This document shows, piece by piece, positions 11,178 through 33,278 of a stretch of DNA of 64,000 nucleotides. Source of the stretch: Stutzerimonas stutzeri RCH2 (GTDB taxonomy: Bacteria > Pseudomonadota > Gammaproteobacteria > Pseudomonadales > Pseudomonadaceae); NCBI RefSeq assembly GCF_000327065.1, contig NC_019936.1:248001-312000 (forward strand). The letters run 5' to 3'. The notes beneath the pieces are model-generated. The model had not been told where the DNA came from. It did not search any database and was given only the letters and a program-made list of their open reading frames with translations. The translations under genes and the position numbers were made by a program. Numbering within the stretch: position 1 is the stretch's first letter; the number at the start of each line of letters is the position of its first letter.

Positions 11178-11257
11178 AACTGTCAACGAAACGTGCTTAC
11201 CTGCCTGCCGGCGTGTACCGTTGCTTTCTTCGTTTCGCCGCCGAGAACCGCTGCCTC

Positions 11258-11902
11258 ATGGCACCCCGCACCAAGACCCGTGACCGCATCATCGAAGCCA
11301 GCCTGGAGCTGTTCAACGCCGAGGGCGAGCGGAACGTCACGACCAACCACATCGCCGCCCACCTCGGCATCTCGCCGGGAAATCTCTATTACCACTTCCC
11401 CAACAAGCAGGCGATCGTGGCCGAGTTGTTCATGCGCTACGAGGCGAGGGTCGATGGGTTTCTGCAGCTGCCGCTGCAGCGACCGATGCAGGTCCAGGAC
11501 AAGGCGGTGTATCTCGAGGCACTGCTCGGTGCGATGTGGGACTACCGCTTTCTGCATCGGGATCTGGAGCATCTGTTGGAGACAGATGCTCAGCTTGCTG
11601 AGCGTTACCGGTCGTTCTCAGATCGTTGCCTGAAAAATGCCCAAGCGATTTATCAGGGGTTTGTTGATGCGGGCATCCTGCGCATGGAAGCAGCAGAGAT
11701 TGAGGCGTTGACCTTAAATGCCTGGATCGTGGCAACGTCTTGGGTGCGTTTTCTCGGTACGCACGGCAAACGTGATTTGGATCTTCTTGCTCTGCGCCAA
11801 GGTGTTTATCAAATGCTCGCGCTGGAGTTTGGATACCTCGCGGATGACGTGAAAGATCAGGTAACAGTAATTGCTGGCAGCTTCATGACGCGCCCTGCGT
11901 GA
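11258..11902 (+). CDS. TetR family transcriptional regulator
   Basis: A 214-residue regulator. The N-terminal helix-turn-helix reads TRDRIIEASLELFN, then TTNHIAAHLGISPGNLYYHFPNKQAIVAELF, a textbook TetR DNA-binding domain. The remaining 150 residues form an alpha-helical ligand domain. It is divergent from the aldehyde dehydrogenase unit and probably represses it. Base composition changes inside the gene: about 61 % GC by hand count at 11281-11580 but about 52 % at 11581-11880, with codons unlike the upstream genes. This suggests a recombination junction near 11570. Confidence 0.93.
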   Translation: MAPRTKTRDRIIEASLELFNAEGERNVTTNHIAAHLGISPGNLYYHFPNKQAIVAELFMRYEARVDGFLQLPLQRPMQVQDKAVYLEALLGAMWDYRFLHRDLEHLLETDAQLAERYRSFSDRCLKNAQAIYQGFVDAGILRMEAAEIEALTLNAWIVATSWVRFLGTHGKRDLDLLALRQGVYQMLALEFGYLADDVKDQVTVIAGSFMTRPA

Positions 11903-11947
11903 CATTAAATTGACTCTTTAATCCTTTCGTCGAATAAAAACAAAATA

Positions 11948-11975
11948 TTGGCACCCATGATGGCCTTTTGATACT
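11948..11975 (+). promoter_or_regulatory. Candidate promoter of the wecB-nfrBA-ybcH operon
   Basis: TTGGCA (11948-11953) and GATACT (11970-11975) are separated by 16 bases in an AT-rich gap, about 100 bp upstream of wecB. An alternative is TTGACT (11910) with AATAAA (11933) at 17-base spacing. Either would start transcription inside the low-GC block. Confidence 0.4.
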
Positions 11976-11999
11976 TTAGTGATATCAACAAGCATCCAT

Positions 12000-12030
12000 G
12001 GAGGGTTGCTGATCTCTCGTCACACCCTCC
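12000..12030 (+). repeat. Stem-loop in the wecB leader
   Basis: GGAGGGT (12000-12006) pairs with ACCCTCC (12024-12030) across a 17-base loop, in the predicted untranslated leader 47 bp before the wecB start. It could affect leader stability or access. The stem has a GGA core of the type bound by CsrA/RsmA proteins, but GGA is in the stem, not the loop. Confidence 0.3.
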
Positions 12031-12077
12031 CTGCTTTCCTCCCGAATACGCGCAAACACAAGCGCCGCTGAGAAACC

Positions 12078-13268
12078 ATGAGCATCAATTCGTTGATCGT
12101 GTCTAACGAGGGCTCCTCTCGGCCGTCCTTTCGGCCAAAAGTCATGCTGGTGTTTGGCACCAGGCCCGAAGCTATCAAAATGGCACCCCTGGCACGGGCG
12201 CTGCGTGACGCAGAAGATCTTGAGCTTTGCCTGTGCGTCACGGGACAGCATCGGCAGATGCTTGATGATGTGTTGCGCCTGTTTGCACTCACCCCAGACC
12301 ATGACCTCGCGGTCATGACACCCGGGCAAACGCTTAACGGTTTGAGTGCTGCGATAGTTTCCCGGCTCGATCCTGTACTCGAGGCGGAACAGCCCGATAT
12401 GGTGCTCGTGCACGGTGACACCACGACCTCGTTCGCCGCAGCGCTGGCGGCATTCCACCGCTCAATTCCAGTAGGGCATGTGGAAGCGGGACTGCGCACC
12501 GGTAATCTCTACGCGCCATGGCCGGAAGAAGCCAATCGACGCTTGACCAGCGTTCTGGCCGAGCTGCATTTCGCCCCCACCGCAACCTCCCGCGACAACC
12601 TGCTTGGTGAGGGTGTTCCCGCGGCCAGGATCGATGTCACTGGTAACACGGTCATCGATGCCTTGCTGTGGATGCGTAAAACGCTTCATGAGAGCGGCTG
12701 GAAGCCCGAAGACCCAGCACTGGCGTCCTTGCCAGAGCGCGCGCGGGTCGTCTTGGTTACCGGCCATCGGCGGGAAAATTTTGGCGACGGTTTCCTGCGC
12801 ATCTGTCGTGCCCTTCGTCACCTTGCGCTGCGTCATCCAGACGTTCGCTTCATCTACCCGGTACATCTCAATCCGAACGTTCAAGAGCCGGTTTATCGAC
12901 TGTTGGATGGCTTGCCCAACCTGATTCTGATCCCCCCGCTGAGTTATCAGGCGTTCGTCTATCTGATGGATCGGGCGACCGTGATCCTTACCGATTCCGG
13001 AGGGGTGCAGGAAGAAGCGCCCTCGCTTGGCAAACCGGTGTTGGTAATGCGCGACACCACCGAGCGGCCTGAGGCCGTGGCGGCTGGTACGGTGCGGCTC
13101 GTTGGTACAGACGAGGAGCGGATCATCGAAGAAGTGTCACGCCTTCTGGATGACTCGGCGGCGTACGAGCAGATGCAACACGCCCACAACCCCTATGGGG
13201 ATGGCAATGCCTGCGCACATATCCTTGATCGGTTGCGGAAGCGGCTTATCTCAGGATGCGCAGAATGA
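12078..13268 (+). CDS. wecB: UDP-N-acetylglucosamine 2-epimerase (non-hydrolysing)
   Basis: A 396-residue enzyme that interconverts UDP-GlcNAc and UDP-ManNAc. The fold begins [17 protein letters not shown] (Gly27 region). Residues equivalent to the E. coli catalytic set are present: Asp114 (HGDTT), Glu136 (HVEAG), Glu150 (PEEANR) and His230 (TGHRREN). The nucleotide motif [17 protein letters not shown] is near residue 310. The N-terminus is about 19 residues longer than usual; ATG 12144 is an alternative start, and the ribosome site of 12078 is weak. Its stop overlaps the nfrB start (ATGA). Being first in this operon, it probably supplies UDP-ManNAc to NfrB. Confidence 0.95.
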
Positions 13269-15451
13269 CGCCGGATTACGTCTATCTGCTGATCGAAGCT
13301 GTTTCTTATTACTTGTACGCGTTGAAATGGGTCACGCTGGTTCTGGCTTCCTTGATGCTTGTGCTGGGGTTGGATGACCTGTTCATCGACCTCGTTTACT
13401 GGGGCCGCACCACGTGGCGCAATCTCGGCCTTTTCCGCCGCGTCGAGCGAGCGGACGAGTCTCTGCTCTATTCGGTACCTGAGAAGCCGCTGGCGATCAT
13501 GGTTCCCGCCTGGCGCGAGGTGGGCGTAGTTGGTGCCATGGCTCATCTGGCGGCTTCCACGCTGGATTACGAGAACTACCAGATATTCGTGGGTACTTAC
13601 CCCAACGATCCCGAAACCCAGGCCGATGTGGATGCGGTGTGCATGCGCTACCCCAACGTGCACAAGGTTGTCTGCGCCCGACCTGGCCCCACCAGTAAGG
13701 CCGATTGCCTTAACAACATCATCGACGCGATATTGCGCTTTGAAAGCCAGGCCAAGCTCAATTTCGCCGGCTTTATCCTGCACGACGCAGAAGACGTCAT
13801 CTCTCCGCTCGAGCTGCGTTTGTTCAATTACCTGCTACCGCGCAAGGACCTCATCCAGGTCCCGGTCTATCCATACGTCAAACGGTGGTGGAATTTCACC
13901 ACTGGCCACTATGCGGACGAGTTTGCCGAACTCCATGGCAAGGATGTTGTGGTGCGTGAGGCGCTGGTCGGCCAGGTGCCGAGCGCTGGGGTGGGAACCT
14001 GCTTCAGTCGTCGGGCTGTCGTTGCGTTGCTTGAGGACGGCGACGGTATTGCCTTCGACGTACAGAGTCTGACAGAGGACTACGACATCGGTTTTCGTCT
14101 CAAGAACAAAGGGATGACCGAGATATTTGCGCGCTTCAGTGTCCGGGATGAACGCCTGTCGCCGCTGGGCGAGCGCAACATCGGCGTTAGCAAGCGATCA
14201 GCAGGCGTAATCTGTGTACGGGAACACTTTCCGGAAACCATGGAGACGGCCATACGGCAAAAAGCCCGCTGGATAACCGGTATCGTTTATCAGGGGACCC
14301 GCACGCTGGGTTGGAGCAGCCATCCTTTCCTCAATTATTTCCTGTGGCGAGACCGTCGCGGTGCGATCAGCAACGCGGTCGGCCTGCTGGGCTCGCTGGT
14401 CTTTGTGCAACTGCTGCTGGTTTGGTCTGTGAGCCTTATTTTGCCGGATGCGTGGCATTTCCCTTCGGTTTTGGGGGATAGCGCCGCCTTGCATGTGCTC
14501 CTCGTGGTCAATGGTGTACTGCTGCTCAATCGGCTGATCCAGCGTTGCTACTTCGCAGGCTCGTTCTATGGCGTTATGCAGGGCGCGCTCGCGGCGCCAA
14601 GGATGCTTTGGAGTAATTGGGTCAACTTCTTTGCCAACCTGCGAGCGCTCAAGCAGGTGCTGGCGATGGGCGACTCCCGGAGAGTCGCCTGGGACAAGAC
14701 GTCCCATGAGTTTCCCGCATTGGTGGACTCGCCGCGCCGCGAGCCTATCGGTCGCCGCTTGCTCAATGCTGGCGCCATCACGGCCGAGCAGCTTGAGGAG
14801 GCATTGACATCTACCCGGCATCGGCGAATCGGCCGGGAACTGCTGGCGCGCGGATGGATTAATAGCCTGCAGCTTGCGCAGGCCCTGGCCGCACAGGCTG
14901 ATCTGGAATGGACACCGCTAAACCCTTTCACTATCGACGCGCAACTCATCGAGCAGCTGCCTGCAAGATTAGCGTTGCGCTACTCGGTTCTACCGATCGC
15001 GGAGCTTGATGGAACGCTTGTCATCGCCTCCGAGCGCGAACTGAGTCAGGTGAGCCTCGGCGCCATGTCACGTCAGCTGGGCCGGAAGATCATCTGCAAG
15101 ATTGCTCCCCAGGGAAGGGTGACCGTCGGGCTGCGCTACTGGTACTTGCGCCATACATCGGACAGCTCCCGTGAATTGATCGAACAGTTGGCAAGTCGTC
15201 GGAATGAACCGGAGCTCATGGAGCAAGTATGTCGACATCAAGTCCTGCTCGGTGACGTGATCCAGGAAGTAGGCATGTTGTCGAGTACGCTCATGGCTCA
15301 AGCGTTGATTGACTTCGAACCGGAGGAAGAGAGCCTAGGCGCTTCTCTTGTTCGACGCGGTTTGGTCAGCGAGGCGGTGATCCAGAGCGCTTTGAAAGAG
15401 CAGCGAGCGGAACAGCGAGCCGGGTTTGAACTGCTGATGGAGTACGCGTGA
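13265..15451 (+). CDS. nfrB: NfrB-like processive glycosyltransferase with C-terminal MshEN-type c-di-GMP region
   Basis: A 728-residue inner-membrane glycosyltransferase. An N-terminal membrane segment (about 10-35) is followed by a GT2 domain with [10 protein letters not shown], acidic motif HDAEDV (173-178), TEDYD (catalytic Glu271-Asp272) and QKARW (332-336), the processive-synthase motif. Two or more membrane helices follow (about 365-440). Residues about 490-728 hold MshEN-type repeats ([56 protein letters not shown]), which bind c-di-GMP in related proteins. The start at 13265 overlaps the wecB stop and has AGGA 8 bases upstream. E. coli NfrB is required for phage N4 adsorption. Confidence 0.9.
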
Positions 15452-18400
15452 TGCGGGTATCTCCACCAGTAGTGAAGAGTATTGCGATGGCGCTGCTGCT
15501 CGGACCGATTTCAGCTCTGGCTGCGCAAGGCAATCCGCTTAGCGAGGTGCAGCGCTTTCGCAGCTACCCATTCATCGACAAGGCCTATCAGGCGCTACGT
15601 AATGATGAGCCTGTCGAGGCAGAGAAGCTTGCGCGCCACGTACTCGATGAGATCTCTCCGCATGTCATCGAAGCGCGTGTGATAGTTGTGCAAGCGCTTG
15701 ACCAGCAAGGGCGGTACGAAGAGGCGCTGGATATGGCGGCTTCCTTGCCGCCAGGGGATCAGGCTGCGCTTGTGCAGTCATTGCGTTTGAACTGGATCAA
15801 CCAAGGAGATCTCTCGGCCGCGATTGTGGAAGGTTGGTTGGCTGAGGAAGCAGACGCAGCTCAGCGCGAGCAGATGCTGCGAAGCTATGCACAGCGGCTG
15901 CATGAACTGCACGGTCCCGTTGCTGCCCTTCGTTGGCTGCAGGGGCGACCCGCCAGCGAGCTGACCGTTACCGCGCTGTTAGAGAGAGCGGTCTTCGCCG
16001 AGCAGGCAGAGCAATGGATGGCGGTAATTAGCGACTTGGAGCCGTTGGCTGCGGATGGGGTGTTGCCTGCCGACAGCTGGCGTCGCCTTGGCCTCGCCTA
16101 TGTAATGACCGACAACGACAGATTGCCTGCTTATCTGCAGTCCGCGCCGTCGAATGAGGATGGCGTTAGCGTGCGGCTGTCAGCAGCCGAACGGGCGATA
16201 GGCCAAGGCCAGGCTAGGCAGGCCAAACAGCTGCTCCTGCCTTTGGAAAGGGCGCAAGCACTCTCGATGCCGCAGCGGGCGCTGCTGCTACAGGCTGCGC
16301 GTGACGACGGTGACGTGGCCTTGGCCGCGGAGCTGGCCGTCCGTTTGGATCGGCCATGTCTGGAATCAATCGAGTGGCTATCGGTTGCGGCGCCGCAGCT
16401 GGCCCGCGAGGCGCTTGGTGATTGTTCCCCAGCAACAGATCCGCGTCATTGGCTCATTCTGGCTCAGCGCCTCGAGGCGGAACATGCACTGATGTCGGCG
16501 ATCCTGCCCGAGCCGTGGAACACGCAGCGGCAGGACTACCTGCTGGCCCGGTGGCTACCCCGTAACGAGTTTGTGAAAGCCCGCGATTGGTTGCAGCAGC
16601 AGGCACCGTCACCACGACGCACTGCGCGACTGGCGCAGATTGCTCAGTCCATCGGTGACAAGAGTGCCGCGGCAAGCGAATGGCGAGAGCATTACCGTGC
16701 GACAGGAGAGCTCCGTTCGGCCGATCTGGCCAGCTTCCTATGGCTGCAGGCGGATCGACCGGTAGAAGCACGTGCTTTTCTCACGGATGTTTGGCGGCGT
16801 CGCGGCGAATTGCCGGAACCTCTGTTGAGTCGCCTGGTTGACCTCTACGTGCAGGCCCCGGATCTGAAAGTCTCGCAGCTCGACGAGTTCGCCAAGCAGT
16901 TGCCGCCTTCGGCTCGTGGTCGACTGTACGGGGCGCTTGCGGCGGAAGGGCGTTGTGGCGTTGTTGCGCAATTGCCGGTCAACGCGCCGACGGACGTCGA
17001 TGAATTGCGTGCGCTGGGCGTTTGTTCGCTTCCCCAACAGCCTGGGCAGGCTGTGGTCTATCTCCAGCTCGCGGCCGGCGCAGGGGACGTTCAGAGCCGG
17101 GGGCAATTGGCCTATGCGTTAGCAGCGGCTGGGCTTCCTGAGGATGCCTATGCTCAGTGGAACTCCATGCCGGCTGACGAACTCGACATCGAAGCGCATC
17201 TGGCGTTGTCTCGTGTCGCTTTGACACTCGGTCACCTGGATGCCGCCGAGCAGCATTGGCAAGACGCGCAATCGCTCACGTCGGAAGGCTGGAGACTGGG
17301 CGCTTTGATCTCCGAAGGCCGTGGACGTGACGACGAAGCTCTGGAGCGATACCGTCAGGCGCAGGCGTTGGGTGAGCAGCCAGCGGATTACTATCAGGGT
17401 GCTGTGGTTGCATTCCGCGCTGGCCGGGAAGAGCTCGGGATGCAATGGCTGCGTCGCGCGACCGAACTCGCCCCGGAGAATGGCCTGTTTCTGCAGGAAT
17501 ATGGAATGCGCCTGGCCGCCGCAGCCACGCCAGTGGAACGTGCCCAGGCGGTTGCTCCGCTTAGCAAGGCTGCCAGGTTGTTGCCGGAGAGTACCGATCT
17601 GGCGCAGGCGCTTGCCTTTCGCCTCATCGAGACGGGAGAACCCGAAGAAGCGCGCGCGCAACTCCGCCGTAGCATCGACTTGTTGCCTGTCGAGGCTTCA
17701 GCGGAAGCTCAGCGTTTCGCAGCGCGGCGGCAACACGAGAGCCTGGAGCGCCGCAATCGCCTCAGTCTCGCTACCAGCTGGTCGCCAGATGGTGTAAGGC
17801 GCAGTGCAGGACAGCGTCGAAACGATGAGTTTTCCCATGGTGTCCTTTTGGATCACCCCCTGGACGGCCCGTTGGCGAACAGGCTTTCGGCTTACGGTCG
17901 AATCATGGCTTCCGGTAAGGACGGCGATGCGCTGGATACAGTCGGCGGAGGGGTAGGGTTGCGCTATATGCCGTTCCAGTCGATCAATCTGAATCTCTAC
18001 GGCGAATTCTTTAGGGAAGACAAGCGCGTTGCTGACAATGATCTGATGCTTCGCGCCAGTGCTTCCTTCCTTGATCAGGGTGAGTATCGGAATGATTGGC
18101 GCGTGGACCAGAACCACTGGCCGGAGCGCTCGTTGTACCTGGACGCCGCTTGGTGGGTGGACGAGTCGGAGCGCTTGCTGGTAACGAGGTTCACTCGTGG
18201 TCATGCATTCAAGTTGCCCACCTCCTCAGCCCAGACGCTGAGCCCGTATCTGGTCGGCCAAGGCACCGAGCAGGACCGCCAACAGGATCTGCGGGTCGGT
18301 GCGGGCCTGCGCTGGCAGCTTTGGTTCGATGATGACCGCTATAACGCCTACCGCCGTCGGCTTAGCATGAGTGTGGAGTATCAACAGGCTCTGGGTGGGA

Positions 18401-18453
18401 ACCTATACGAGCGTGCCAACGGCCTGCAGATCGGCATCGAGTTGGCATTGTGA
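15451..18453 (+). CDS. nfrA: NfrA-like outer-membrane glycan export protein (TPR plus beta-barrel)
   Basis: A 1000-residue secreted protein. A signal peptide occupies residues 1 to about 25 (IAMALLLGPISALA). Roughly residues 30-780 are tandem TPR-like helical repeats rich in Ala, Leu, Gln and Glu. The last 220 residues alternate hydrophobic and polar positions in a beta-barrel pattern (LRYMPFQSINLNLYGEFF and later strands). This architecture matches NfrA, the E. coli N4 phage receptor, and parallels PgaA and BcsC exporters. ATG 15451 overlaps the nfrB stop (TGATG); a GTG at 15448 is also possible. Predicted to carry the NfrB product across the outer membrane. Confidence 0.88.
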   Translation: MRVSPPVVKSIAMALLLGPISALAAQGNPLSEVQRFRSYPFIDKAYQALRNDEPVEAEKLARHVLDEISPHVIEARVIVVQALDQQGRYEEALDMAASLPPGDQAALVQSLRLNWINQGDLSAAIVEGWLAEEADAAQREQMLRSYAQRLHELHGPVAALRWLQGRPASELTVTALLERAVFAEQAEQWMAVISDLEPLAADGVLPADSWRRLGLAYVMTDNDRLPAYLQSAPSNEDGVSVRLSAAERAIGQGQARQAKQLLLPLERAQALSMPQRALLLQAARDDGDVALAAELAVRLDRPCLESIEWLSVAAPQLAREALGDCSPATDPRHWLILAQRLEAEHALMSAILPEPWNTQRQDYLLARWLPRNEFVKARDWLQQQAPSPRRTARLAQIAQSIGDKSAAASEWREHYRATGELRSADLASFLWLQADRPVEARAFLTDVWRRRGELPEPLLSRLVDLYVQAPDLKVSQLDEFAKQLPPSARGRLYGALAAEGRCGVVAQLPVNAPTDVDELRALGVCSLPQQPGQAVVYLQLAAGAGDVQSRGQLAYALAAAGLPEDAYAQWNSMPADELDIEAHLALSRVALTLGHLDAAEQHWQDAQSLTSEGWRLGALISEGRGRDDEALERYRQAQALGEQPADYYQGAVVAFRAGREELGMQWLRRATELAPENGLFLQEYGMRLAAAATPVERAQAVAPLSKAARLLPESTDLAQALAFRLIETGEPEEARAQLRRSIDLLPVEASAEAQRFAARRQHESLERRNRLSLATSWSPDGVRRSAGQRRNDEFSHGVLLDHPLDGPLANRLSAYGRIMASGKDGDALDTVGGGVGLRYMPFQSINLNLYGEFFREDKRVADNDLMLRASASFLDQGEYRNDWRVDQNHWPERSLYLDAAWWVDESERLLVTRFTRGHAFKLPTSSAQTLSPYLVGQGTEQDRQQDLRVGAGLRWQLWFDDDRYNAYRRRLSMSVEYQQALGGNLYERANGLQIGIELAL

Positions 18454-19283
18454 GGCGTTTGCTCATTGGAATTCTGCTGAGTTGTGTAATGCGCGGCGTG
18501 GCTGCTGATGCACTTTTCTACCAACCGCAGACCAGCGATGCGGTTGTTGAGCCGGATCAGTGGGCTGAAATCTGGCGGCAGAGCAAAGCGCACGGATTTG
18601 ATCGAGTCATCGTTCAATGGACCCGTTATGGCGACGAGGATTTCGGTGGTGATCATGGCTGGCTGCGCAACGCGTTGCGCCAGGCACGACAGGCAGGGCT
18701 TGGACTTGTGGTGGGGCTCTATCAAGACCCTGACTATTTTTCGCGACTCAACGACCTCTCCAGGCTATCGCGCTACTGGAAACAGTTGTTCGATCAAACG
18801 CTGTTACAGCAGCGTCTATTGTTAAGTGAGGGCGTGGTCGCCGATGCGTGGTACCTCCCTGCCGAACTGTCTGACCGGACGTTTAACGATCAGGGTCGTC
18901 GCAAGGATCTACTCGAACAACTAAACGGCCTGATGCAGCACCTGCAGCAGCCGTTACAACTAAGTGCATATAGCACCGGCCAGCTGGCCCCAGCGGCAAA
19001 TGCTCGGTGGTTGGATGAGCTGCATGGCGTCGGAGCGATGGTCTGGTGGCAGGATGGCGTTGGGGTCGCGGAATTGCCAACGCTGGTGAGAACGGCGTAC
19101 GTGCAGGCCTTGTCCTGCGAGACGGGAATCGTTAGTGAGGCGTTCAGACGAACTAGCGTCGGTAATGAGCCGTTTACAGCCGTTCCGGCTGATCCACAGC
19201 GTTATTCGTCGTGCCACCCGTCAGCAGTTTTTTCGTTGCGCTATATGCCATGGGGCGCTGCCCTGCTAAGGGCTACGCCGTAG
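18450..19283 (+). CDS. YbcH-like DUF4434 protein, predicted periplasmic TIM-barrel
   Basis: A 277-residue exported protein starting at GTG 18450, which overlaps the nfrA stop (GTGA). The signal peptide is MRRLLIGILLSCVMRGVAA. The mature part looks like a glycosidase-type (beta/alpha) barrel: FYQPQ strand, VIVQWTRYGDEDF, LGLVVGLYQDPDYF, AWYLPAEL and LSAYSTGQLAP, with several acidic residues at strand ends. The same family is encoded beside nfrAB in E. coli (ybcH). By analogy with PgaB, PelA and BcsZ it may trim or modify the exported glycan, but this is inference. GC is noticeably low. It converges with the YheT-like gene with an 11-bp overlap. Confidence 0.75.
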   Translation: MRRLLIGILLSCVMRGVAADALFYQPQTSDAVVEPDQWAEIWRQSKAHGFDRVIVQWTRYGDEDFGGDHGWLRNALRQARQAGLGLVVGLYQDPDYFSRLNDLSRLSRYWKQLFDQTLLQQRLLLSEGVVADAWYLPAELSDRTFNDQGRRKDLLEQLNGLMQHLQQPLQLSAYSTGQLAPAANARWLDELHGVGAMVWWQDGVGVAELPTLVRTAYVQALSCETGIVSEAFRRTSVGNEPFTAVPADPQRYSSCHPSAVFSLRYMPWGAALLRATP

Positions 19284-20259
19284 CTTCCGCCAGCCACTGC
19301 GGAATCCGCTGCTCCAGGTAGTATCGCGGCCGCCGTGGCGAGCCTTCGATAAAGCCGACATGCCCGCCGCGGGGGTGCAGTTCGAGGGTCGTGGTGGCGG
19401 ACAGCTCGGCCGCATCCGGCACGCTGTGGCGGAATACGAAAGGATCGTCCTCGGCCTGGATCAGCAGGGTTGGCGTCGTGATCGTCGGCAGGTAGTAGCG
19501 GCTGGAGGCGCGGCGGTAGTAGTCCTGGGCGTCGCTGTAGCCATGCAGTGGCGCGGTGAAGCGGCCATCGAAGTCCCAGAAGGTACGCATGCCGTGCAGT
19601 GGCCCGAGGCTCTGCAGCGCACCGAGGTGCTCCTGCAGGCCCTCGCGCTGGAAGCGCTGTTGCTTGTCCTTCACATAGGCGACCATCGCTTTCATGAAAT
19701 GCGCCTGGTAGATGCGGGAGAAGCCGAGGCCGATACGGTCGGCGCACTGGTCCAGGCGGAACGGCACGGACACTGCCACCGCTTTGCGCAGCGGACTACT
19801 GGCTGCCGTTTCGCCGAGATACTTGAGCAGTACGTTGCCTCCTAGCGAGTAACCCACCGCATACAGCGGCGCCAGCGGCCGGGATGCCTGCAGATGCCCG
19901 ATCACTTCGGCGAGATCGTCGCTGGCGCCGGAATGATAGGCGCGCGGCAGCAGGTTGGGCTCGCCCGAGCAACCGCGCCAGTTGATGGCAACGCTGGCCC
20001 AGCCGCGCGCCGCCAGCTGCTGCTGCAGTCCAAGCACGTAAAGCGAATTCGATGAGCCGGTCAGCCCGTGCAACACCAGCACCAGTGGCGCCGTTGCTTC
20101 ATGCGGGCCGTGCCAGTCCAGGTCGATGAAGTCGCCATCGGCCAGCCACAGCCGTTCGCGCTGGCGCTCAAGACGCGGCGGCTTGCGAAAGAACGGGTTC
20201 CATAGGGTCTGCAGGTGCGCTCCGGGGAGCCACCAGGCGGGTTGGAAGGTGTCGGGCAC
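19273..20259 (-). CDS. YheT-like alpha/beta hydrolase
   Basis: A 328-residue alpha/beta hydrolase of the YheT/AB-hydrolase group. It has the oxyanion region VLHGLTGSSNS, the nucleophile elbow GYSLGGNVLLKYLGE (catalytic Ser), an acidic residue in QAEDDPFV, and the catalytic His in HPRGGHVGFIEG. The N-terminus (AWWLPGAHLQTLWNPFFR) is the usual family signature. Physiological substrate unknown. GC is back to the chromosomal norm, which makes it the right border of the low-GC block. Its 3' end overlaps the convergent ybcH-like gene. Confidence 0.92.
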   Translation of the reverse strand: MPDTFQPAWWLPGAHLQTLWNPFFRKPPRLERQRERLWLADGDFIDLDWHGPHEATAPLVLVLHGLTGSSNSLYVLGLQQQLAARGWASVAINWRGCSGEPNLLPRAYHSGASDDLAEVIGHLQASRPLAPLYAVGYSLGGNVLLKYLGETAASSPLRKAVAVSVPFRLDQCADRIGLGFSRIYQAHFMKAMVAYVKDKQQRFQREGLQEHLGALQSLGPLHGMRTFWDFDGRFTAPLHGYSDAQDYYRRASSRYYLPTITTPTLLIQAEDDPFVFRHSVPDAAELSATTTLELHPRGGHVGFIEGSPRRPRYYLEQRIPQWLAEATA

Positions 20260-31349: not shown

Positions 31350-33278
31350 TCACCGTCCGGATGAGCGGCAGGCCTGGCCATGACAGAGTGCGCTGGGGCT
31401 CCAGTCGATCGCATCGGCAGGCTGCGGACGGGCAAAGCCATAGCCCTGGCCGTAGTCGCAGTTCTGCGCAAGCAGGAATGCCGCCTGCTCGGCGGTCTCG
31501 ATGCCTTCGGCAACTACTTTCAGGCCCAGGTTGTGCGCCAGGCCGATGACTGAGCGGGTAATGGCTGCGTCGTCGCGGTCGTCGGGCAGGCCGCGGACGA
31601 AGCCCTGATCGATCTTCAGCTTATGCACATTCATGCGCTTGAGGCGCTGAAGGGACGAATAGCCGGTGCCGAAGTCGTCGATCGCCAGCTGCACGCCGAG
31701 TGCGCGCAGGCGCTGCAGCAGCTCCAGCGCGGCATCAGGGTCCTGCATCACCGCGCTTTCGGTGATTTCCAGCTCCAGATGACGAGCCTCCAGGCCGCTT
31801 CTGGCGAGAATAGTGGCGACCTGCAGATCGAGTTCGCCGTTGCCGAACAGCCGGCTGGAAATGTTCACCGCGATGAATCCGAGCGGATGGCCCTGGCCGA
31901 GCCACTCGCGCGCCTGGTTGCAGGCCTGCTCCAGCACCCAGTGATCGATGGCGCTGATAAGTCCGGTTTCCTCGGCAATCGGGATGAAGACTCCCGGTGC
32001 GATCAAACCTTTTTCCGGGTGCTGCCAACGCACCAGGGCTTCGAAACCGCTGATCGTGCCCTGCCGCAGATCGTAGATCGGCTGGTAATGCAGACGCAGC
32101 TGGCCCTGCTCCAGCGCCTGTCGCAGTGCCGTTACCAGCTCGACACGCTGACGCGCCTGGCTGGTCAGTTCCTCGGAGTAGAACGCATAGGTCGAGCGGC
32201 CGCTGCTCTTGGCCTTGAACAGCGCCGAGTCGGCATTGCGCATCAGCTGCTCGGCATTCTGCACGTCAGTCGGATAGGGGTAGAGCACGATGCCGATGCT
32301 CGCGCTGCTGAACAGCTCCTGATCACCGATATGAAAAGACTCGTTGAGGCGGTCGAGGATGCGTAATGCCAGCGCGGTGGCCTTTTCGGCGCCGTAGCCT
32401 TCGCAGAGCAGGGCGAATTCGTCGCCACCGAGCCGGCCGAGTGTCATGCCTTTTTCCAGATGCTCGCTCAGGCGCGTGCTCACGGCCTGCAACAAGGCAT
32501 CGCCCAGGCTGTGGCCAAGGCTCTCGTTGATGTCCTTGAAATGGTCGAGATCGATCAGCAGCAGCGCGCCGCTGCGTTTGTGGGCGCGCGCGCGCTCGAG
32601 GTCCTGCTTGGCGCGTTCGGTAAACAGCAGGCGGTTCGGCAGGTTGACCAGCGGATCGTAGTGGGCGAGCTGGTCGAGTTCTTCGCGGGAGCGCTTCAGC
32701 GCCGAGAGGTCTGAGAACACGGCCACGTAATGGCTGAGCTGGCCCTGGTTGTCATGAATGCAGCGCAGGTTCTGCCATTGCGGGTACACCTCGCCATTTT
32801 TGCGGCGGTTCCAGATTTCGCCGCTCCACTCACCCTTGTCCTTTAGTGCCAGCCACATCTGCTGATAGAACTCTGCGTCGTGCTTGCCCGAGGCGAAGAG
32901 TTTCGGTGTCTGCCCGAGCACCTCCTCCGTGCTGTAACCGGTGATACGGCTGAAGGCCGGATTGACGTGCACGATGCGCTGCCTGGGATCGGTCACCAGC
33001 ACGCCTTCCTGGGTGCTGTCGAATACCGCAGCCGCCTGCTTCAGGCTGGTTTCCTGCACATGCTGGGCGCGCTGTTGCTCATCGAAGCGGCGAAAATGCT
33101 GGCGGCCGAGCAGAAATATCAGCGCGCTGGTCAGCGCCACGAACAGGGCACCCTTGCCCATTTGCCAGGCCTGGCTGTCGCCCGCGGCCAGATGATTAAC
33201 CAGCGTGTCGCCAAGCAGGATCCACAGCATGGCCAGGCTGAAATAGCCCAGGCTCAGCCGGACGAGATATGTGTTCAT
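31350..33278 (-). CDS. PAS-GGDEF-EAL c-di-GMP turnover protein
   Basis: A 642-residue protein with two N-terminal membrane helices (about 8-30 and 42-58), a PAS domain (about 80-195, FDSTQEGVLVTDP), a GGDEF domain with intact GGDEF at 284-288, and an EAL domain with GFEALVRW (EAL 413-415), ELEITESAV and DDFGTGYSSL. Both active-site motifs look complete, so it may make or break c-di-GMP. The inhibitory RxxD site ahead of GGDEF is absent (EKGM instead). Paired with the CHASE hybrid kinase on the same strand. Confidence 0.95.
   Translation of the reverse strand: MNTYLVRLSLGYFSLAMLWILLGDTLVNHLAAGDSQAWQMGKGALFVALTSALIFLLGRQHFRRFDEQQRAQHVQETSLKQAAAVFDSTQEGVLVTDPRQRIVHVNPAFSRITGYSTEEVLGQTPKLFASGKHDAEFYQQMWLALKDKGEWSGEIWNRRKNGEVYPQWQNLRCIHDNQGQLSHYVAVFSDLSALKRSREELDQLAHYDPLVNLPNRLLFTERAKQDLERARAHKRSGALLLIDLDHFKDINESLGHSLGDALLQAVSTRLSEHLEKGMTLGRLGGDEFALLCEGYGAEKATALALRILDRLNESFHIGDQELFSSASIGIVLYPYPTDVQNAEQLMRNADSALFKAKSSGRSTYAFYSEELTSQARQRVELVTALRQALEQGQLRLHYQPIYDLRQGTISGFEALVRWQHPEKGLIAPGVFIPIAEETGLISAIDHWVLEQACNQAREWLGQGHPLGFIAVNISSRLFGNGELDLQVATILARSGLEARHLELEITESAVMQDPDAALELLQRLRALGVQLAIDDFGTGYSSLQRLKRMNVHKLKIDQGFVRGLPDDRDDAAITRSVIGLAHNLGLKVVAEGIETAEQAAFLLAQNCDYGQGYGFARPQPADAIDWSPSALCHGQACRSSGR

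Follow-up and report, generated by a model that had tools for sequence, protein, structure and literature searches.

What do four closely packed genes in a stretch of the Stutzerimonas stutzeri RCH2 genome make, and why do they lie at a place where related bacteria carry other genes or none? The stretch analysed here, the window, comprises 64,000 nucleotides (contig NC_019936.1, positions 248,001 to 312,000; RCH2 is genome G000 in our numbering), and the genes are wecB, nfrB, nfrA and ybcH, at 12078-19283. Their assignment to the Nfr exopolysaccharide system, also called NGR (N4 glycan receptor), is well supported, and the operon itself belongs to a published kind (PMC8669469, PMC8669472). We consider it quite probable that the operon is an Nfr-type cassette in a slot between tetR and yheT, likely making UDP-N-acetylmannosamine (UDP-ManNAc), polymerizing it in dependence on cyclic di-GMP (c-di-GMP) and exporting the chain. 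The most unusual feature of the locus is this slot, which has alternative contents in relatives; the slot setting and the hydrolase-like YbcH appear to be new. The features are as follows, with GT2 standing for glycosyltransferase family 2 and TPR for tetratricopeptide repeat.

12078..13268, plus strand: wecB, non-hydrolysing UDP-N-acetylglucosamine (UDP-GlcNAc) 2-epimerase, predicted supplier of UDP-ManNAc
13265..15451, plus strand: nfrB, GT2 synthase with MshEN motifs at its C-terminus (longest reading frame from 13256)
14744..14896, plus strand: MshEN tandem c-di-GMP motif of NfrB (residues 497-547 of the reading frame from 13256; two 24-residue motifs, spacer 3)
15448..18453, plus strand: nfrA, TPR protein with C-terminal NfrA_C (residues 829-994), predicted outer membrane exporter
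18450..19283, plus strand: ybcH, DUF4434 protein, predicted TIM barrel, likely periplasmic glycan hydrolase
11827..19285, no strand: slot contents, DNA without counterpart in five aligned empty-slot congeners
11213..11902, plus strand: tetR-family regulator, left border of the slot
19273..20259, minus strand: yheT-type alpha/beta hydrolase, right border of the slot
11903..12077, plus strand: leader of 175 bp from tetR to wecB, presumably with the promoter

An Nfr-type operon and its products

All four open reading frames (ORFs) are present, on the plus strand. The genes wecB, with its stop codon TGA at 13266-13268, and nfrB, with an in-frame ATG at 13265, overlap by 4 bp (13 bp if the longest nfrB ORF, starting at 13256, is used), nfrB and nfrA by 4 bp with a GTG start at 15448 or 1 bp with an ATG at 15451, and nfrA and ybcH by 4 bp (GTG at 18450). 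The ORFs and the junctions bear out the four same-strand genes with overlaps of 1-4 bp described in the first-pass annotation of this DNA. In the leader, the best candidate for a FliA-type promoter, as in E. coli, had 4 mismatches of 12 to the consensus that we assume for it; neither sigma-70-like sites in the leader region (2, against 2.4 in shuffled sequences) nor terminator-like sites (7, against 6.6) were in excess.

In profile searches, WecB scored 489.5 bits with TIGR00236 (cut-off 210.15). NfrB matched GT2 families, the MshE-type c-di-GMP motif NF053729 (64.9 bits, cut-off 38, residues 497-547) and MshEN PF05157 (36.1 bits, cut-off 23.1, residues 549-631); NfrA matched NfrA_C PF13283 (123.7, cut-off 25) and TPRs, and YbcH matched DUF4434 PF14488 (68.6, cut-off 30). 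None of the four products matched PilZ or BcsB of the Bcs cellulose synthase, the PelF, PelG or PelD families, or the markers of the GT2/HlyD/OEP sets described below, and TIGR03937 (PgaC/IcaA, the poly-N-acetylglucosamine [PNAG] synthase) was not among the NfrB matches at E up to 0.01. The check for an unrelated cellulose, PNAG or Pel-type system thus turned up no marker family, and the gene identities and the Nfr/NGR assignment proposed earlier agree with both the profile families and the aligned residues.

The E. coli NfrBA-YbcH system (PMC8669469, PMC8669472) has the same order nfrB-nfrA-ybcH and has in common with the window the GT2 and MshEN motifs, the NfrA family and the need for WecB, with identities of 61% for WecB, 53% for NfrB, 27% for NfrA and 34% for YbcH. 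However, E. coli wecB is found in the wec (enterobacterial common antigen) operon, as the first-pass annotation had it, whereas the window wecB is inside the nfr operon. The complete four-gene order is that of Pseudomonas loci such as the one of P. soli SJ10 (PMC8669469) and of most of the related loci compared here (L002-L081, the best 80 of 160 confirmed NfrB loci). Since wecB directly precedes nfrB in 73 of these 80 loci and all of them have nfrA and ybcH, the arrangement is not due to chance.

The synthase NfrB keeps the GT2 residues D177, TED at 273-275 and Q335..RW339, among which D177, D275 and W339 align with D169, D267 and W330, the set given for E. coli in PMC8669469 and PMC8669472. 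Likewise, all 82 NfrB sequences (the 80 loci, E. coli and the window) retain G499 and G526, the equivalents of G491 and G519 in E. coli, where killing by phage N4 was abolished by G491L and in part by G519S (PMC8669472). The relaxed MshEN pattern of PMC5013675 matches window NfrB at 497 and 524. We had considered a loss of c-di-GMP sensing in NfrB of this lineage, and rejected it because both motifs fit this pattern. As the pattern discriminates poorly in the NfrB family, with no match in 37 of the 82 sequences, one in 43 and two in 2, the aligned residues were used for the assessment. NfrB has a second MshEN-like module at its C-terminus, with a more degenerate sequence. Both the MshEN-type c-di-GMP domain and the processive GT2 motifs annotated on NfrB stand, by profiles and by aligned residues, and on these sequence features NfrB would be under c-di-GMP control. 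A divergent wecB-nfrB-nfrA-ybcH locus (L124:6540-14360, genome G058) has an NfrB that ends just past the 53-residue tandem MshEN motif, which it keeps without the C-terminal remainder; about 3.5 kb lie between this NfrB and the sole matching part of NfrA.

Some observations speak against a c-di-GMP-controlled Nfr system. NfrB, NfrA and YbcH missed the NCBIfam equivalogs NF008411 (1155.3, cut-off 1170), NF007302 (510.8, cut-off 1223) and NF007404 (300.3, cut-off 344), respectively, and they are homologues of these families, not formal equivalogs. The MshEN spacer has 3 residues in NfrB as opposed to 5 in MshE (PMC5013675). In addition, no diguanylate cyclase gene adjoins the operon, whereas a GGDEF gene is found at most 1.6 kb downstream of ybcH in 59 of the 78 related loci with enough sequence (2 of the 80 were too short), and PMC8669469 reports one beside nfr in most pseudomonads. 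RCH2 has 37 GGDEF stretches in its genome, and all 34 matches to the cyclase of the related loci cover only the GGDEF half at its C-terminus (query residues 167-358). A 642-aa GGDEF protein is encoded about 12 kb from the operon (31350-33278, minus strand), with no evidence that it serves NfrB.

NfrA, with NfrA_C above the cut-off and additional TPRs, is a predicted TPR-containing outer membrane exporter, as previously annotated, and by analogy with E. coli it may act as a phage receptor. In comparison with locus L002, NfrA and YbcH are only 53 and 57% identical as against 79 and 82% for WecB and NfrB, indicating that the former two diverge faster.

The TIM-barrel-like fold noted earlier for the fourth gene agrees with a high-confidence predicted model of YbcH (pLDDT 92.7). 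E139, D202 and E230 are the only acids invariant in 44 of 44 sequences, and in the model they lie at the C-terminal ends of barrel strands 4, 6 and 7; conserved acids are therefore present at the ends of strands 4 and 7, as in 4/7-type glycoside hydrolases. The best structural match is 4h41 (BT_0435), a solved TIM barrel with 14% identity to YbcH that is labelled putative alpha-L-fucosidase, and glycoside hydrolases or chitinase-like proteins make up the majority of the 50 best VIA rows. Because the predicted barrel resembles glycoside hydrolases and has invariant acids at its strand ends, YbcH is likely a polymer hydrolase, and the trimming of the glycan suggested by the first-pass annotation becomes plausible. 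It is a serious possibility, although not the one we favour, that YbcH is a non-catalytic scaffold or chaperone. In clan GH-A an Asn precedes the acid/base Glu; YbcH has Ala138 at this place and the relatives shown have A, M, L, T, E and others, and for this reason YbcH was not filed as GH-A. Foldseek matches in the PDB (E up to 0.001) also include lactonases, a pyruvate carboxylase domain and BHMT, which weakens the case for a hydrolase, as a shared fold shows no function. Moreover, PMC8669469 terms E. coli YbcH a putative scaffold, and reports that its deletion leaves N4 unblocked, with the motility effect only partly suppressed. Against a scaffold stand the three never-varying acids, all of them at strand ends, and the predominance of glycoside hydrolases among the best matches. 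No mention of DUF4434 was found in the literature search.

For the system as a whole, we infer that WecB would epimerize UDP-GlcNAc to UDP-ManNAc, which the GT2 domain of NfrB would polymerize and translocate when the MshEN motifs bind c-di-GMP. In the periplasm YbcH would cut or edit the chain, and NfrA would take it across the outer membrane, where phages may make use of the system. The cassettes, in turn, would move by recombination between the flanking genes.

The tetR-yheT slot in related genomes

The slot was read downstream of tetR in the 47 of 56 same-genus genomes, RCH2 included, in which tetR was found. It is empty in 27, with yheT immediately after tetR and the operon missing. Eight genomes have pel genes in it, seven a four-gene GT2 set, one bcs (G220, L151), only RCH2 nfr, and one (G231) a gap of 900 bp containing an OEP remnant; in the other two, G080 and G043, tetR is elsewhere, followed by AraC, FAD and TPP-enzyme genes, with no yheT within 17-19 kb. 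Exopolysaccharide genes are present in all 17 filled slots. The slot is closed by yheT in 8/8 pel genomes, 6/7 GT2 genomes and the bcs genome; in the GT2 genome G228, rsmD was found beyond the slot and yheT was not found.

For the pel slots (L108-L110, L125, L133, L143-L146, L200-L206), Pel families were named in G176, and the other seven pel genomes were recognized by similarity to its PelA, PelB or PelG, the cassettes of G189 and G210 being read at both ends only. The GT2 set (L104, L106, L111-L115, L126-L131, L147, L207) consists of a TackOD1-GGDEF protein, a PgaC-like GT2, an OEP and an HlyD protein, with families named in G164 and extended to the other six genomes by similarity. Its GT2 is below the PgaC cut-off (136.5 vs 422.3), and the set is possibly an undescribed synthase-type exopolysaccharide system; in L127:1591-7422 it reads as TackOD1 plus divergent GGDEF, GT2, OEP and an HlyD-type adaptor. 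The bcs slot encodes BcsQ, a single protein that combines a PilZ-bearing synthase with BcsB, and, as separate products, BcsC and a GH8 protein. PelD_GGDEF, PilZ and MshEN, of Pel, Bcs and Nfr, respectively, are all c-di-GMP receptor types; a c-di-GMP link of the GT2 set is weakly suggested by its divergent GGDEF domain.

The left junction of the slot lies in the 3' end of tetR and the right one at about the ybcH stop, the exact base differing between relatives. Flanking genes are colinear in same-genus relatives, with DNA identities of about 94% to G072 and about 90% to G211 in the window parts compared. Among the 80 related loci, nfr is found between the same tetR and yheT flanks only in L002 and L044, both from outside the genus survey. 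A literature search in titles and the first parts of abstracts, and in passages of PMC7112194, PMC8792951 and PMC12125118, found no description of the slot; S. stutzeri MJL19 has bcs and a strain-variable "sea" cluster (PMC12125118), whose place relative to the slot was not compared.

It is in our view an even question whether tetR-yheT is a dedicated exchange slot for c-di-GMP-linked exopolysaccharide machines (Nfr/NGR, Pel, cellulose, PgaC-like GT2/HlyD, or bare), with YbcH cleaving the chain. Sister genomes differ in a gyrB tree of 46 of the 47 slot genomes (G217 had no full gyrB match; G220, G080 and G043 are labelled "other"): RCH2 has nfr and G211 an empty slot, as is the case with pel in G152 and empty in G183, GT2 in G180 and empty in G148, and bcs in G220 and empty in G227. 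Near-identical genomes differ as well, G176 having pel and G160 and G233 an empty slot. When empty rows are left out, pel requires 3 changes and GT2 4, of which 3 are forced by well-supported branches.

Alternatively, the operon would be a vertically inherited Pseudomonadaceae Nfr operon in an ancestral slot, lost from most congeners, and pel, bcs and GT2 would be independent insertions into a permissive intergenic site between convergent genes, a history that we regard as possible but doubtful. The shared flanks of L002 and L044 agree with it, and losses seem easy, as in the gap of G231 and the empty close relatives. However, only RCH2 among the 47 genomes has nfr there, and the other same-genus bearer, G221, has nfr elsewhere and an empty slot. 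The GC content at third codon positions (GC3) of the operon is also atypical, with 0.60-0.70 against 0.81-0.84 in five flanking genes (tetR 0.69) and 0.82-0.89 in the same operon genes of L044. Furthermore, operon differences at fourfold sites are nearly twice those of the flanks relative to L002 (0.63-0.69, against 0.31-0.39 in four flanking genes and 0.48 in tetR), and relative to L044 they reach 0.56-0.67 (flanking genes 0.33-0.39, tetR 0.51). Unless silent sites evolve faster in the cassette, these differences mean that it did not just move together with its flanks. The tetR gene is itself variable across the genus: RCH2 TetR is 66-73% identical to nine congeners, which are 68-94% identical among themselves.

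Several data nevertheless count against the reading as a cassette in a slot. Only one genus was surveyed for the slot, and cassette labels are more clustered on the gyrB tree than in shuffles (values as low in 1/500 for pel and 20/500 for GT2), so that part of the pattern is inherited. The nearest relative of RCH2 is G211 by gyrB (96.7%, against 88.8% for G072) and G072 by the window identities given above, and because of this disagreement the sister pair is not firm for RCH2. The low operon GC3 might come from weak codon selection rather than import. No recombination tract across the flanks was found relative to G211, G186 and G072 beyond the tetR end, where identity drops towards the slot, varying otherwise without a clear step. 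No repeats of 12 bp or more were found within either slot-end region, and the longest word shared between the slot ends has 7 bp in direct and 6 bp in inverted orientation; no mobile-element search was made. For the proposed exchange, homologous recombination in the flanks would be the simplest mechanism.

WecB and the predicted supply of UDP-ManNAc

WecB is the only PF02350 match in the RCH2 genome, and its nearest relatives of solved structure, 3dzc and 1vgv, bear the label UDP-N-acetylglucosamine 2-epimerase. In the alignment, D114, E136, E150 and H230 retain E. coli D95, E117, E131 and H213, which we take to be key residues, and K34 retains K15. The last is a key residue according to PMC8669469/PMC8669472. 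All five residues being kept, WecB has the full catalytic set ascribed to it earlier; precursor supply is encoded within the operon, as also proposed, since the sole WecB of the genome adjoins nfrB. Apart from two weak partial matches below the cut-off, no UDP-sugar dehydrogenase was found in RCH2, and no consumer of UDP-ManNAc other than NfrB is evident.

According to PMC8669469, wecB lies directly with nfrB in organisms that have no other WecB, for example Pseudomonas soli, and this adjacency is taken there as evidence for UDP-ManNAc. The first-pass annotation had presented the epimerase inside the operon as distinctive; we dropped this as a novelty because the rule is published in PMC8669469 and reproduced by the linkage survey given above. 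All seven related loci without an adjoining wecB, L053 among them, have a full WecB elsewhere. Among 198 family genomes (RCH2 included), NfrB is present in 24, and WecB is above the cut-off in 23 of these 24 as against 67 of the 174 without NfrB; intact wecB adjoins nfrB in 22 of the 24, is broken in G191 and lies elsewhere in G157. At least 3 changes are required to place the 8 sequences lacking wecB, one of them from E. coli, on an NfrB tree; the tree was made by a quick method and has long branches for E. coli and L044.

In G191, wecB is in pieces beside an intact nfrB (L123:2747-3607) and no other WecB was found in the draft genome, the one apparent exception to the published rule that could be an assembly error. 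The locus L053 has a short wecB remnant before nfrB (G199:C11:114753-114854) and another full WecB in its genome, which suggests that the copy in the operon is lost where another WecB exists. An operon-type-like WecB (466.6 bits) is present at G135:C44:134343-135443 in a genome without an NfrB match. Three nfr operons with wecB (L003, L011, L060) are from Thalassospira, of the Alphaproteobacteria; their NfrB, of 60-63% identity, is nested among Pseudomonas in the NfrB tree, and transfer between classes is likely. Two records titled Pantoea sp. (L043, L056) have NfrB inside the Pseudomonas putida group and are mislabelled or transferred.

It seems improbable that the polymer of NfrB is something other than ManNAc, such as a GlcNAc or mixed chain for which WecB adjusts the sugar pool. 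The proposal of ManNAc in PMC8669472 and PMC8669469 is based on genetics, and the NGR structure is left open there; however, the opposite effects of E. coli wecB and wecC mutants are expected with a UDP-ManNAc substrate (PMC8669469). It is highly unlikely that WecB feeds another glycan and is only incidentally in the nfr operon: a separate exopolysaccharide locus (G000:C1:1924000-1942000, L086) has the one WecG/TagA-family gene of RCH2 along with pyruvyltransferase, GH5 and GNVR genes, but homologues of this transferase occur in 52/56 same-genus genomes (RCH2 included) and, with 67-96% identity, in 19/20 of those listed without a WecB match (the exception being G124), so that it seems independent of WecB, whereas wecB typically adjoins nfrB.

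Surface polymers as likely exchangeable cassettes

Biofilm polymers are usually studied singly and taken as invariable within a species. Matrix differences between strains would be explained in part by a slot that holds differing polymer machines or is empty, and the variants of such a slot would give natural matched backgrounds for the comparison of polymers. With one WecB, no UDP-sugar dehydrogenase over the cut-off and no other evident user of UDP-ManNAc, RCH2 would be a cleaner host than E. coli for work on the NGR structure, and the likely hydrolase YbcH would serve as a tool enzyme for this glycan. It is likely that surface coats are swapped whole, as cassettes, among related strains. 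If this is true, a single recombination event would exchange the matrix polymer and, in the case of Nfr, the phage receptor, with the c-di-GMP network of the strain left as it is.

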